Positions 15,273 through 21,474 of a stretch of 64,000 nucleotides of DNA are shown here, piece after piece (the first letter of the stretch is position 1; each line of letters opens with the position of its first letter). The translations under genes were made by a program, and so were the position numbers. Source of the stretch: an uncultured Acidobacteriota bacterium (GTDB lineage: Bacteria; Acidobacteriota; Vicinamibacteria; Marinacidobacterales; SMYC01); the NCBI GenBank assembly GCA_947259165.1, contig CAMYKY010000004.1, positions 46,481 to 110,480 on the forward strand, written 5' to 3'. The notes beneath the pieces were generated by a model. The model worked only from the letters and a program-made list of their open reading frames with translations, was not told the DNA's origin and ran no database searches.

Positions 15273-17564
15273 ATGTCGAACGCCAAGTGGCCACACGAAG
15301 CCCCGCCAAGGCCCGAGCCCGAAGCGGCCGACTTCTTTCCGCAGACCACCGAGACCCATCTCCGGGACTATTGGTACATCATCCTCAAGCGACGCTGGAT
15401 GATTCTCGCTGTGGTTGTTTGCGTCGTCTCCTACTCGGCCGCTCGCGCTCTGATGCGAAAGCCAGTCTACTCTGCGACCTCCGTGCTGCAGATCGATCGC
15501 GGAAAAATCAACCTCGTGCAAGACGTCATGACGCCCGACTACTGGACCGGTTACAATGAGTTTTATCCGACCCAGCAGCGCGTTCTCCAAAGTCGGAACC
15601 TCGCCCGGCGTGTGGTTCGACAGCTTCGCTTGTGGGAGCATCCGTACTTCACCGGCGGGCATCCGCTCGAAGCCGACGAGCAAACGCTCGAAAATCTCTC
15701 CGGCGCAGTCGTCGGGATGCTACAAATCGACCAGATCCGAAACACCCAGCTCATGGAGCTGCGTTTCACCACGCTCGACCCACAGGTCTCCGCCGACCTG
15801 TCGAATGCGCTCGCACAACAATACATCGCCTTCAGTAGCGAGAGCGAGACGACGCTGGCCCGGGACACGGCCGGATTCATCGGAGAGCAAGTCGAAAAGA
15901 TTCAAAAAGAAATTCAGCAGCGGGAGAAACTTCTCCAGGAGTACAGCCAGCGCGAAGACTTGATGATGGTAAACGAAAAAGAGCTCAGCGTCATGCGCCA
16001 ACTGGAAGAGCTCAATACCGCCTACACTCAAGCACGCGCGGCGCGAGCGAACGCGGAAGCCAACTTCCGCAGTATCTCTGCCGACGCATCCGGTCTACCG
16101 GAAGTCCAGTCGAACCCTTCGATTGAAGATCTGCGTAGCGAACGAGAGCGCGCTCGAAGGAGCGTTGCGGATCTCAGCTCCAAGTTCAAAGACGACTGGC
16201 CCGAGCTCCGGCGTGCTCGCGAAACGCTAGCAGACATCGACCGGCGCTTGGTCCAAGAGCAGCGGACGGTCGCGAAGAAGCTCGTGGCCCAGTCCCAAGT
16301 CGAGTACCGGGCAGCGCTCGAACGAGAAACCCTCCTGCTCCAAGAAGTCGAGGCCCAGAAGCAGGAAGCCCAGGAGCTCACCGAGCTCACGTCGAACTAT
16401 AACCAGATCAAGGCGGAGGTCGACAATCAACGCTCCATGCTCCAGCAGCTCTTGCGGCGCCGCACCGAGACGGGACTCTCCGCCGAGCTCGGCGAGCGCC
16501 AGCCCGTCAACGTACGCATCGTGGAGGCCGCTCTCGTACCGAGAGGAGCGAATGGGCCTGGGCTCAAGAGAAACTTGTTCATGGGGGCGTTGATAGGTAT
16601 CGGACTGGCTCTAGGCGCAGCTTTTTTTCTCGACTACTGGGAAACCGCCATTTACACGATCGAGGATTTGAGAAGGCACGTGCCGCTCCCCTACATGGGG
16701 ATGGTGCCGCGTCTCGAGGCCGCGTCGTTTGCGCTCTGGGCGGGCAGCAGGGGGAAATTCCTAGCTTACGACCCTGGCGAGGCGGTCAGCCCGCGGCGGG
16801 GCAAGAGCATGAATCGAACCCGCTCGGCGCTCGCGCTCTCCCAAACGACGAAAGTCGCGTCGCGCGCCAAAGAAGACACCTCGATGATCGCCGAGCGCTT
16901 CAAATTCCTTCGTGGCTCCCTCCTGCTATCGACCCCCGGAGCGCCGCCGCGAACCGTGCTCGTGACCGGACCCGACAAGAACGCCGGCAAGACGTTCGTC
17001 GCGTGCAATCTCGCGACGTCCCTCGCGGATCTCAACAAGAAAGTCCTTCTCATCGACGCCGATCTGCGCAATCCCCAACTTCACAAGGTGTTCCGCTTCA
17101 AGAATCGAGTCGGGTTGTCGAACGTTCTCTCCGGTCAAACGACGATCGAGAAAGGCTGTATCGTCTCGACTCCCATCCCGAACCTCTATGTCTTGCTTGC
17201 GGGGCCCGCAAGCCCGACACCCGCCGAGCTTCTAGGCTCCTCCAAGATGGAAGAGACGATGGCGCAGTGCATGGAGCACTTCGACTATGTCCTGCTCGAT
17301 TCGGCGCCGCTTCTCCCCGTATTCGACTCGCATTACTTGACGGTGCGCGCCGACGCGAACTTGCTCGTAGTCCGAAGCGGCCACACGTCGCGACACGCGG
17401 TAACGCAGAGTTTGGATCTCATCGATCGCGTCGGCGGCCGTGTCACCGGCGTGGTTTTGAACGATGTCAATCTCGCTGACTACGCTCAAAACTACTACTA
17501 CAGCTACCACAGCTACGAGTACGGCACCTATGCCGAAGACCCGGTAGAGCGAAGGGCGGGTTGA
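15273..17564 (+). CDS. Polysaccharide biosynthesis tyrosine autokinase (Wzc-like, Wzz domain + BY-kinase)
   Basis: Wzz-like N-terminus and coiled coil; Walker A GPDKNAGKTFVACNLATSL, Walker A' VLLIDADLRNP; Tyr-rich C-terminal tail NYYYSYHSYEYGTY. Confidence 0.92.
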   Translation: MSNAKWPHEAPPRPEPEAADFFPQTTETHLRDYWYIILKRRWMILAVVVCVVSYSAARALMRKPVYSATSVLQIDRGKINLVQDVMTPDYWTGYNEFYPTQQRVLQSRNLARRVVRQLRLWEHPYFTGGHPLEADEQTLENLSGAVVGMLQIDQIRNTQLMELRFTTLDPQVSADLSNALAQQYIAFSSESETTLARDTAGFIGEQVEKIQKEIQQREKLLQEYSQREDLMMVNEKELSVMRQLEELNTAYTQARAARANAEANFRSISADASGLPEVQSNPSIEDLRSERERARRSVADLSSKFKDDWPELRRARETLADIDRRLVQEQRTVAKKLVAQSQVEYRAALERETLLLQEVEAQKQEAQELTELTSNYNQIKAEVDNQRSMLQQLLRRRTETGLSAELGERQPVNVRIVEAALVPRGANGPGLKRNLFMGALIGIGLALGAAFFLDYWETAIYTIEDLRRHVPLPYMGMVPRLEAASFALWAGSRGKFLAYDPGEAVSPRRGKSMNRTRSALALSQTTKVASRAKEDTSMIAERFKFLRGSLLLSTPGAPPRTVLVTGPDKNAGKTFVACNLATSLADLNKKVLLIDADLRNPQLHKVFRFKNRVGLSNVLSGQTTIEKGCIVSTPIPNLYVLLAGPASPTPAELLGSSKMEETMAQCMEHFDYVLLDSAPLLPVFDSHYLTVRADANLLVVRSGHTSRHAVTQSLDLIDRVGGRVTGVVLNDVNLADYAQNYYYSYHSYEYGTYAEDPVERRAG

Positions 17565-18730
17565 TCCCCATTCCGGACGCCGCCGAAGGGCCCCCAAGCC
17601 CCGAGAACCTTGCTGCCCTCGACGATGTCGTAAAGACGTGCGGGAGCCGGATCCGCTCCGGCAAAAGCTTCTTCGAAACCGCTGAATCCGAACGTCTGTC
17701 ACCCCTCCTCTACCACGTGTTCGATCGTCTCGGTTGGCCCGACACCGTGTCCAAGGAAGAGCAGCACCACTTCCGGAAGGCTTATTACCTGAGTGCCGGC
17801 CAGAACGTCGAGCTGCTGGGTGCGCTATCCGAGGCGGCCCTCGCTCTGCGCGAACAGGATATCCCCTGTGTCGCGTTCAAGGGCGCCGCACTGGTGAAGC
17901 GAATCTACCCCAACGTCGCCGTGCGTCCCATGGGCGATGTCGACGTCTATGTACCCCCTGCTAGCGCCGAGCACGCCGAGGCAGTGCTCTCCACGCTTGG
18001 CTATCGGCCCTTTTGTCCTGACATGACCCCGGGTCTGAGTCGACGCATTCGTCACGCGCGCCTGTACGTCGGTGGGACCCGGGAGACGACGAGCATCGAC
18101 CTCCACTGGTCCTTGGTCGGACACAGCAACGATGCCCGATCTCCCGATCCACACTGGCTGCGCCGAAATATTGTCGCGCGCAATGGCGATCCTTGGATGC
18201 ATTTTTCCGACACCGCGCACCTTCTCTACCTGAGCGCGCACATGAAGCTGCAACACTACGACGAGGAGATTCCCCTGTTGTGGTGTCTCGACTTCTACCT
18301 CCTCGCGACTCGGGGGGACATCGCTTGGGACCAGCTCTTGAGCGATGCTCGCCGCTTTGGCTGGACCGACGCCGTGAGCGCCGTCGCATTCGATGTCCGA
18401 GAGCGTCTAGGCGTCGCGCTACCCGCACCCCTCGAGCGGATCGCTAGCGCTCCGAAAGCCCCGCTTCATCGTCACGGCGCGCGGAACGAGCCCGAGCGCG
18501 TCTTGAACGAGCTCCGAGCCCTGGGGTGGTCGGGTCGCCTCGCGCTTGTGAGAGCCTACGTCCTGCCGTCACCCACCTACATCCGCTTCCGCTACCAGAC
18601 GCTGAGCTGTCCTCTCGGGTATGCCAAACGTTGGAGCACGATGCTCGCCCGGGCGGGCACTATTCTTCTGCGCGCACTGCGGCGCAAGCCCGGGACTCGC
18701 CCACTATTGACTTCGCGAGAAAATTGCTAG
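17561..18730 (+). CDS. Nucleotidyltransferase family protein (NTP_transf_5-like)
   Basis: VAFKGAALVKRIYPNVAVRPMGDVDVYVPP (DxD after RPMGD); TTG start overlapping the wzc stop. Confidence 0.75.
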   Translation: MIPIPDAAEGPPSPENLAALDDVVKTCGSRIRSGKSFFETAESERLSPLLYHVFDRLGWPDTVSKEEQHHFRKAYYLSAGQNVELLGALSEAALALREQDIPCVAFKGAALVKRIYPNVAVRPMGDVDVYVPPASAEHAEAVLSTLGYRPFCPDMTPGLSRRIRHARLYVGGTRETTSIDLHWSLVGHSNDARSPDPHWLRRNIVARNGDPWMHFSDTAHLLYLSAHMKLQHYDEEIPLLWCLDFYLLATRGDIAWDQLLSDARRFGWTDAVSAVAFDVRERLGVALPAPLERIASAPKAPLHRHGARNEPERVLNELRALGWSGRLALVRAYVLPSPTYIRFRYQTLSCPLGYAKRWSTMLARAGTILLRALRRKPGTRPLLTSRENC

Positions 18731-18753
18731 GATCGTTTTGTCATCTAAAACCC

Positions 18754-19671
18754 ATGAGCACTGAGAGCCTTGGAGCGCGCTACCTCGCCCACCCAGATCG
18801 ATTTCCCGAGTGGGGCGAGGGAGCGCCGTTCGGCCCGCGAGAGACCTCGATGACCATCTGCGGTACGCGCGTTCGCATCTCGGGACTGAGCCACGAGCAA
18901 GACCGCGCGATTCACGCTTTGTGGCCTGACTTCGTGGGCGAGGACGTCGCTGAGCCAGCCGCTTTGAGCGTTTTTCGGACTCCTGAGTCGACATTCAAGA
19001 AACTGGATCGCTGGGTCTACGAGCTCGACTTCGACTACCAGCCAGGGTCCTTGCGCCTCGCCGGGCTCGATCTCATGGCGCGGGTCGACATGAGCTCACC
19101 GCTACGCGCCGCACTCTGGATCGCTACCGAGTCGCCCGACACCTTCCACGGTGCGTTTGAGAACTTTCTTCGTGTCGTCGTCGCGTATGCGGCGATGCAT
19201 CGAGGCGGCGCCTTGGTGCACAGCGCTGCCGTCGTCGACGGTGACGACGCCTGGCTGTTCGTCGGCCACTCAGGCGCCGGCAAGTCGACGGTCTCCCAGC
19301 TAGGACTCGACTCGGGTCGGCGCGTGCTCAGCGACGACCTGAACCCGATTCTCCCACGCGAGGACAACGGGATCGACGTCGTCGGTAGCCCCTTCCTCGG
19401 CGATCTCGGCACACGCTCGCCCGCGCGCCATCGACTCTCGGCTATCTATCGCCTGGAACAAGGAACAGAGGATAGTCTCCGCCCCATGGGCGCCGCCGAA
19501 ACGCTCGCGTGTCTGATGGCATGCGCACCTTACATCAACCGTGATCGGCACCGAGCCGATACGCTTTGTTCGAACCTATTGGAGATGGCACAACAGGTGC
19601 CTGCCAAGGTTTTGACCTTTCGTCGGGACGGAACGTTCTGGCCGCTTCTAGAGAGGACAGCGCTTGCCTGA
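18754..19671 (+). CDS. HPr-kinase-related (HprK-like) kinase
   Basis: P-loop WLFVGHSGAGKSTVSQLGLDSGRRVLSDDLNPI typical of HprK-related kinases; located between nucleotidyltransferase and PqqD genes. Confidence 0.78.
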   Translation: MSTESLGARYLAHPDRFPEWGEGAPFGPRETSMTICGTRVRISGLSHEQDRAIHALWPDFVGEDVAEPAALSVFRTPESTFKKLDRWVYELDFDYQPGSLRLAGLDLMARVDMSSPLRAALWIATESPDTFHGAFENFLRVVVAYAAMHRGGALVHSAAVVDGDDAWLFVGHSGAGKSTVSQLGLDSGRRVLSDDLNPILPREDNGIDVVGSPFLGDLGTRSPARHRLSAIYRLEQGTEDSLRPMGAAETLACLMACAPYINRDRHRADTLCSNLLEMAQQVPAKVLTFRRDGTFWPLLERTALA

Positions 19672-19966
19672 TTTGAATCTCGTATTTAGACGTAAGGATG
19701 ACATTCGCTACCGTGTCGTCGGAGACGAGGCCATCGTCGTTCGCCAGAACGCCGCGGAGGTTCTTGCGCTCAATGACGTTGGCGCGCGTGTTCTCGAGCT
19801 CATCGACGCCGACAAGACGCTCGCACAGGTGATCGCGACGATGTCGGGTGAGTACGACGTCCGCCCAGACGAGCTCGCGAACGATGTGCAACGTTTTGTT
19901 GCCGCTATCCGGGATGCCGGTATCGTCGTGGATGTCAGCGAGGAAGTCAGCGAAAAGGTCCGCTGA
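19664..19966 (+). CDS. PqqD family peptide-chaperone / RRE-like protein
   Basis: VVGDEAIVVRQNAAEVLALNDVGARVLELIDADKTLAQVIATMSGEYDV matches the PqqD fold pattern; ~100 aa. Confidence 0.8.
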   Translation: MPDLNLVFRRKDDIRYRVVGDEAIVVRQNAAEVLALNDVGARVLELIDADKTLAQVIATMSGEYDVRPDELANDVQRFVAAIRDAGIVVDVSEEVSEKVR

Positions 19967-19971
19967 AAATC

Positions 19972-21072
19972 GTGCGTACCAAGAGAGAGCGTAAGGTTTC
20001 GAGCTCCCAAAGCCTGGAGCCGAGCTACGACGAGACCATCCTCGGGACGTGGGAGAACCATCACCTGTTCTCCGCTCTCGTGGAGTTGACCTATCGATGC
20101 AACCTCGATTGCTACTTTTGTTACAACGATCTCGATCTCGCCGGAGACCCCCTGCGTCTCGCCGACTACGAGCGTCTGTTCGAAGAAATGCGCACGCTCG
20201 GTTGCCTGCATTTGACGTTGTCCGGCGGCGAACCGCTCGCCCATCCAGATTTTTTCGCCATCGGAGCCAAAGCGCGCGAGCTCGACTTCGTAGTCCGAGT
20301 GAAAACTAACGGGCATGGGCTCGATCGTGAGCTCGCGGGCAGACTCCGAAGCGAAGTCGACCCGTTCATCGTCGAAGTCAGCCTGCACGGCGCTTGCGCT
20401 GAAACCCACGATCGACAAACGCGCGTTGCCGGAAGCTTCGATCGGCTCGTGCACAACCTGGACGTGATGCGAGCGACGGGCCTGCGCGTCAAAATCAACA
20501 CCGCGCTGACCCGTTGGAACGAGCGCGAGATCGAAGGTATGTTCGCGATTGCAGACCGCTTTGCCGTACCGCTCACCCTCGATCCTGAGGTCACGCCGCG
20601 TGACAACGGAGACCGGGACCCGATGCGCATCAGCGCGTCACCGGAGGGATTGCGCCATCTCGTCGCGGTACAGGCGAGTCGGCGCAAGGGGACACAAGCC
20701 GAGGTCCTGCGAGAAGGCGACGCTGAGATTCACAGCCGGGATCCCGACAGGCACTGTGGCGCGGGCGCGTCGGGCATCGCGATCGATCCTTATGGCAATG
20801 TCTACCCGTGCGTTCAATGGCGACGGGCCATCGGAAACGTCCACGGAAGCTCGCTCCAGGGGATCTGGCGCGCGAATGGAAAACTCGATGAAATCCGGCG
20901 ACTCACCGTCGAAGCCAAAGGAGTCGTGAGCGGCCACGACTCCGAAGTCCCACTCGTCGGATTCTGTCCCGGTGTCGCCGAGATGTTGACGGGCGATCCT
21001 CTGGCCGTTCCCGAGAGTACATCAACCCGCGCCAACGTCCTGTCGGAGTTGCCGCTCCACCCCGTCCAATAA
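19972..21072 (+). CDS. Radical SAM/SPASM domain protein
   Basis: CNLDCYFC (CX3CX2C), LTLSGGEPLAHPDFF, C-terminal HCGAGASGIAIDPYGNVYPCVQWRRAIGN...FCPG cysteine motif. Confidence 0.9.
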   Translation: MRTKRERKVSSSQSLEPSYDETILGTWENHHLFSALVELTYRCNLDCYFCYNDLDLAGDPLRLADYERLFEEMRTLGCLHLTLSGGEPLAHPDFFAIGAKARELDFVVRVKTNGHGLDRELAGRLRSEVDPFIVEVSLHGACAETHDRQTRVAGSFDRLVHNLDVMRATGLRVKINTALTRWNEREIEGMFAIADRFAVPLTLDPEVTPRDNGDRDPMRISASPEGLRHLVAVQASRRKGTQAEVLREGDAEIHSRDPDRHCGAGASGIAIDPYGNVYPCVQWRRAIGNVHGSSLQGIWRANGKLDEIRRLTVEAKGVVSGHDSEVPLVGFCPGVAEMLTGDPLAVPESTSTRANVLSELPLHPVQ

Positions 21073-21297: not shown

Positions 21298-21474
21298 TCA
21301 GGAGCGCTGGGCGAGCGGGCAGGTGCCGACGTTTGCCTTGGCGGGCGGGCGCGGGGTGCACAGCGCGGCCATAGCTTCGAGCGGCTCGCGGTAGAGGATC
21401 TCGGGCCGGCGATATTTCTTCTTGGTGGATGCGGGTCCGTTGGCGGAGGCTCGTTTCTTTTCGTCGTGTTTCAT
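21298..21474 (-). CDS. Small RiPP-precursor-like peptide (58 aa from the ATG)
   Basis: MKHDEKKRASANGPASTKKKYRRPEILYREPLEAMAALCTPRPPAKANVGTCPLAQRS: charged leader, K/R-x-PEI motif, short Cys/Gly/Pro core; converges with the rSAM/PqqD cassette. Confidence 0.6.
   Translation of the reverse strand: MKHDEKKRASANGPASTKKKYRRPEILYREPLEAMAALCTPRPPAKANVGTCPLAQRS

Follow-up and report, generated by a model that had tools for sequence, protein, structure and literature searches.

Known phosphorylated peptides and a related gene cassette

The nearest known systems to the peptide cassette described here are the linear polyphosphorylated peptides (LPPs) and the paeninodin-like lasso peptides. In the LPPs, a leader with the motif YxxPxVLxHQxIxFET is cut after T(-1), Ser3 is phosphorylated, and the genes lie in capsule loci (PMC13381572). 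Two kinases, LppK for the LPPs and BsfK for BsfA, phosphorylate this core Ser3 and not the terminus (PMC13381572). In the paeninodin-like lasso peptides (PadeK/ThcoK/SyanK, PsmK, PsmN), an HKDD motif is reported for the kinases that phosphorylate the C-terminal Ser of the precursor, and PsmN glycosylates phospho-Ser in pseudomycoidin (PMC9266682). Leaders of both lasso peptides and LPPs carry the published RRE-binding consensus [YW]xxPx[IVL] (PMC13381572).

The window, by which is meant the whole 64,000-nucleotide stretch of Acidobacteriota DNA that was analysed, holds a cassette with features of both. Its precursor gene, P0001, is short, encodes a conserved leader, and lies beside modifying enzymes, as in RiPPs generally. 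An HprK-like kinase, a discrete RRE, and an NTP transferase are shared with the LPPs; a C-terminal Ser, an HprK-like kinase with HKDD, an NTP transferase, a PqqD-like B1 counterpart, and a [YW]xxP leader are shared with the paeninodin-like lasso systems (PMC9266682). A polysaccharide-locus setting is common to all three. In place of the lasso cyclase there is a radical SAM (rSAM) enzyme, and the core contains Cys. The LPP paper (PMC13381572) nowhere uses the term radical SAM. The rSAM/SPASM enzyme is the added element relative to LPP, and the conserved hydroxyl is, judged by eye, at the C-terminus as in paeninodin-type lasso precursors. Unlike the LPPs, the family extends beyond Bacillota.

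A scan of the window's genes on either side of the cassette showed no Asn-synthetase-like lasso cyclase (C) or transglutaminase-like B2. In the other sister loci, where the check covered the 25 commonest Pfam families, Transglut_core3 occurs only in a set adjoining the cassette at L112. This is one of two cases (L102:9183-12330 and L112:9778-12112) in which a lasso-type set directly adjoins the rSAM cassette, echoing the co-localisation of LPP and lasso genes; its parts include a precursor, MKKTYRKPSLRRLGLLRQITRFSF, and an NTP_transf_5 gene in L102, and the Transglut_core3 gene in L112.

The precursor gene

P0001 occupies positions 21298 to 21474 on the minus strand (ATG at 21474, TGA at 21300-21298) and encodes 58 amino acids. 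It and the rSAM gene (19972-21072, plus strand) point toward each other across a gap of 225 bp. The first-pass annotation had described exactly this open reading frame in this arrangement, and the sequence it quoted matches. Searches of Pfam and NCBIfam with the peptide gave no match.

A chance open reading frame would be in keeping with the modest coding score of the ORF taken alone, but the substitution pattern and the homologues already refute that reading, leaving it with a negligible probability. For example, the orthologue in genome G002 is 72% identical, and across the 38-residue conserved part the two genes differ at 4, 4, and 15 sites in codon positions 1, 2, and 3, respectively (pN 0.097 versus pS 0.49); none of the other reading frames has this pattern in the same comparison. 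G016 has a 57%-identical copy, which likewise lies behind the orthologous rSAM gene and converges with it. The G002 copy is at the end of one contig and the matching kinase gene starts another (G002:C226), so the PqqD and rSAM genes of that genome probably fall in an assembly gap. The 58-residue frame is a real gene, selected at the protein level as its substitutions indicate, and the reality of both gene and family is close to certain. The first-pass annotation had proposed that a lack of conservation near homologous cassettes, or a non-coding substitution pattern, would dispose of the peptide; what was found is some 83 relatives and a coding-type pN/pS.

Distribution of the family

A search of the phylum with the rSAM protein gave matches in 88 of 396 genomes, from which 40 loci were fetched, and a scan of species genomes added 79 more loci. 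Iterated peptide profiles then recognised the relatives of P0001, approximately 83 short ORFs beside homologous rSAM genes. A local profile was used that made no demand for a terminal Ser, and matches were limited to those ending no more than 12 residues from the stop. The family ranges over Acidobacteriota (Thermoanaerobaculia, Holophagae), Gammaproteobacteria (Competibacter, Chromatiaceae, Solemya symbionts, Sedimenticola), Betaproteobacteria, Myxococcota, Desulfobulbus, and Verrucomicrobia. It is a widespread, previously unnamed precursor-peptide family. This breadth, the leader peptidase, and the kinship to LPPs described below had no place in the first-pass annotation.

Of 193 genomes of the class, three carry the peptide and the same three the kinase, a coincidence with P = 8e-7 if the two were independent. 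Two of these genomes also have the rSAM gene; the cassette of the remaining one is broken by contig ends. Such a pattern bears on the idea of a translated peptide that works without modification, as a regulator or structural element, its place beside the rSAM cassette being incidental. Convergent transcription relative to the cassette in the window's clade would suit this idea. Against it, the peptide accompanies the cassette in several phyla and in both orientations, its phyletic pattern is identical to that of the kinase, and it carries the RRE motif, all of which make an unmodified peptide very improbable. It is instead highly probable, from gene context and sequence, that P0001 is a precursor acted on by the cassette enzymes.

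The searches found no peptide in several homologous cassettes (e.g., L064, L069, L075, L076, and L078-L083). A motif scan found no such ORF in L007 or L008, which were dropped as peptide carriers, and weak tblastn matches in G015, G064, G069, and others were set aside since the alignment-based search gave three genomes of the class only. Some loci are more elaborate. L066 has a second, divergent precursor (L066:14284-14469, minus strand) with three Cys and a Ser end, accompanied by its own kinase, PqqD, and rSAM genes, and a standard cassette lies on the same contig. L181, L182, and L183 are variant cassettes with two rSAM genes and two to three HprK-like genes; in L181 the precursor again ends in Ser.

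Conserved residues of the peptide

Conservation was counted over 69 unique precursors with a complete C-terminus, including 44 representatives below 60% identity. The leader segment Y21-R-R-P24-E-I26 (21397..21414, minus strand) is the predicted RRE-binding motif, from its conservation and the published consensus. Position 21 is Tyr or Trp in 100% of the 69, and P24 and E33 are each kept in 99%. The proposal of the first-pass annotation that the ORF is a RiPP precursor with an RRE-type leader is thus supported, with [YW]xxPx[IVL] in essentially all relatives. The predicted leader end, A34-M-A36 (21367..21375, minus strand), is an A-x-A sequence in which A36 is kept in 97-100% and position 34 is A, V, L, or T; its register matches that of the cleavage site in LPPs.

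Cys39, the third residue of the predicted core (21358..21360, minus strand), is present in 100% of the 69. Cys52 (21319..21321, minus strand) is kept in 97% and lies 4-8 residues before the C-terminus. These counts, in precursors adjacent to rSAM genes, support the earlier suggestion that the Cys pair suits rSAM chemistry; the spacing given with it, 15 residues, needs correcting to 13 positions. The distance between the two Cys varies, mostly from 7 to 24, but that from Tyr to Cys39 is 18 residues in 64 of the 69. This is the Tyr-to-core-residue-3 register of the LPPs, as compared by eye, not statistically, with the published motif YxxPxVLxHQxIxFETxxS. Spacing and hydrophobic positions of that motif are kept and its H, Q, F, E, and T changed, the pattern common to both leaders being YxxPx[VI]L..[QE].[IL]; the leader ends in Ala where that of LPP ends in Thr, and Cys takes the place of LPP Ser3 at core position 3 in all 64 peptides with standard spacing.

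Also unlike LPP, the P0001 family has a nearly invariant C-terminal Ser. In P0001 this is Ser58 (21301..21303, minus strand), the predicted phosphorylation site, and Ser is the very last residue in 66 of the 69 precursors and in 42 of the 44 divergent representatives; the three other ends are Thr, Ala after Ser, and Phe.

The kinase and its predicted target

The HprK-like putative peptide kinase (18754..19671, plus strand) has the HKDD motif and a predicted PEPCK/HprK-type fold. Among 98 homologues, H155 and K176 are kept in 100%, D193 in 99%, and D194 in 86%. The AF2 model of the window's kinase (pLDDT 93.9) matches PEPCK structures, and the sequence match to HPr kinase 1jb1 is weak; HprK belongs to the PEPCK fold class. 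A longer ORF from a GTG at 18526 (18526-18754) overlaps the preceding NTP_transf_5 gene, and the ATG at 18754 is the likelier start.

Because Ser is nearly always last and the kinases keep the HKDD of lasso-precursor kinases, S58 is predicted to be the phosphate acceptor, as the first-pass annotation had guessed, and by analogy this is likely. One alternative is a rSAM RiPP whose terminal Ser is not the acceptor: the kinase would act on a core Thr or another substrate, and the Ser would serve, for instance, in glycan attachment, kinase recognition, or trimming. The core Ser3 phosphorylated by LppK and BsfK offers a precedent, and the P0001 core does hold T40 and T51, but the terminal Ser is the only near-invariant hydroxyl of the core and core position 3 is Cys throughout, which makes the alternative unlikely.

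The other cassette enzymes

The rSAM gene is the constant gene of the cassette. Its product, a putative maturase (PF04055 3.1e-19, PF13186 2e-07), is a radical SAM/SPASM protein in which CxxxCxxC and the auxiliary C262, C280, and C332 are invariant in 44 aligned homologues. Three auxiliary Cys suggest a twitch-type domain and not a full SPASM. The PqqD-like discrete RRE (19673..19966, plus strand; PF05402 3.3e-14) lies between the kinase and rSAM genes; domain matches to it, and the motif and predicted fold of the kinase, establish as real the two neighbours that the first-pass annotation had named. The order SpI>HprK>PqqD>rSAM>peptide< is repeated in 11 listed loci, some of which represent the same contig fetched twice. 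All 15 genomes checked have HprK, in several of them not adjacent but 5-11 kb off. An accessory nucleotidyltransferase-like gene of PsmN/LppN type, NTP_transf_5 (17561..18730, plus strand; PF14907 1.5e-47), turns up next to cassettes more often than any other Pfam family (7 of 126 neighbours), but it is not constant across loci and was rejected as a core gene. Peptidase_C25 (gingipain-like) genes adjoin several cassettes (L145:2391-4574, plus strand, and three other neighbours). No dedicated exporter was recognised in the cassette, and, unlike in LPP, none of the MsbA-like type.

None of the three, peptide, rSAM protein, or kinase, attains the cut-off of any curated NCBIfam family. The closest named model for the rSAM is the mycofactocin maturase (105 bits against a cut-off of 265), PQQ scores 89 against 381, and the nearest solved structure is PqqE. 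These affinities favour a reading in which a small redox cofactor derives from the peptide, cut out as from PqqA or MftA, with the kinase regulating or activating the cofactor. However, the region between the Cys varies in length and sequence with no fixed cofactor-forming dipeptide, there is no PqqC- or MftC-type partner among the genes scanned, and kinase and NTP transferase indicate phosphopeptides. A cofactor source is accordingly improbable, and a modified peptide is preferred; that the rSAM modification would involve the Cys carries somewhat better than even confidence.

Other rSAM systems offer partial likenesses. SynChlorMet (ScmC/D/E/F) and HPr-rel-A/B of NCBIfam bring together HprK-like, PqqD-like, and SPASM rSAM proteins as here, but SynChlorMet has two rSAM where the P0001-type cassette usually has one. 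The window's proteins fall short of the curated cut-offs of ScmC (30.9 versus 125 bits), HprK_rel_A (19.3 versus 200), and ScmE (77 versus 400), and membership was rejected; the two-rSAM variant L182, also below the cut-offs, was rejected as well. Sactipeptides and ranthipeptides share the rSAM/SPASM enzyme and a Cys-containing precursor with the P0001 system, which differs from them in its separate RRE, its kinase, usually only two Cys, and the lack of any NCBIfam maturase model at cut-off. Literature searches, which covered a minority of subscription papers, returned no description of a radical SAM, HprK, and PqqD peptide cassette.

A candidate leader peptidase in sister cassettes

The SpI-type (archaeal-type) leader peptidase of LPPs has a counterpart in 53 sister loci. 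This gene of approximately 130 residues in most cases either immediately precedes the kinase gene or follows the rSAM gene, and its product is related to archaeal-type signal peptidases (TIGR02228, scoring below cut-off; SEC11A match). The model (pLDDT 95) has the signal peptidase/LexA fold, and the member modelled leaves no space for a membrane anchor ahead of the catalytic box. Every aligned member keeps His62, Arg63, and Asp80. The catalytic Ser is replaced by Cys in 35 of the 53 (e.g., L107:4429-4809, plus strand, in a locus whose precursor is at L107:7094-7267), so that, unlike in LPP, the P0001-type peptidase is mostly Cys-type. An A-x-A leader end fits the specificity of signal peptidases, and cleavage after A36 is a reasonable, if not strong, expectation from the sequence.

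The window itself has no signal-peptidase gene. The single match in its genome is Ser-type, on contig G000:C20 beside another NTP_transf_5 gene, and was rejected as part of this system since the locus is EPS-like and no peptide of the P0001 family was recognised there. At that locus (L184), the signal-peptidase relative precedes the second NTP_transf_5 gene (L184:8411-10044), and a large gene, Wzc-like by eye, lies upstream of the pair (L184:467-2599).

Proposed pathway and significance

From the gene, its conservation, the cassette, motifs, and folds, we infer the chemical steps and the role of the product as follows; a RiPP family not described before, with P0001 as a precursor processed in this way, is the best explanation and a likely one. 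The PqqD-like protein would bind the leader at Y21-x-x-P24, for which the motif gives good grounds for confidence, and hand the peptide on to two enzymes. One of these, the radical SAM/SPASM protein, would modify the core at a C-H position, for instance by a cross-link, either between the residues Cys39 and Cys52 or beside them. The other, the HprK-like kinase, would phosphorylate Ser58. Where NTP_transf_5 is present, as in the window, it could add a sugar or nucleotide to the phospho-Ser in the manner of PsmN; such NTP-dependent glycosylation at this locus is put forward tentatively, at slightly less than even confidence. A soluble archaeal-type signal-peptidase relative, which the window's cassette lacks, would remove the leader after A36.

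The product would probably act at the cell surface with the surrounding exopolysaccharide. An exopolysaccharide cluster flanks the cassette and includes a Wzc-type tyrosine kinase, glycosyltransferases, a sugar epimerase, a carbamoyltransferase, and an ABC-2 membrane protein; a role of the peptide with exopolysaccharide is possible and is advanced with reserve. The boldest version joins all of these parts into a new multi-phylum RiPP class with a two-Cys rSAM cross-link, an invariant C-terminal Ser that receives a phosphate and, at some loci, a sugar or nucleotide as well, release by a signal-peptidase relative with Cys in place of Ser, and coupling to exopolysaccharide assembly or attachment. 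Taken whole, this is speculative and rather doubtful.

The finding brings together, within a single conserved cassette of several Gram-negative phyla, two separate kinds of RiPP: phosphopeptides tailored by kinases (paeninodins, LPPs) and the products of radical SAM enzymes. It yields a testable rule, that the last residue is Ser and that the kinase requires H-K-D-D, and it puts forward soluble signal-peptidase relatives of the Cys type as a candidate class of leader peptidases. It also provides further systems outside Bacillota for asking why phosphorylated RiPPs occupy polysaccharide loci. If the proposal is true, the P0001 family would add a new branch to the phosphorylated peptide natural products.
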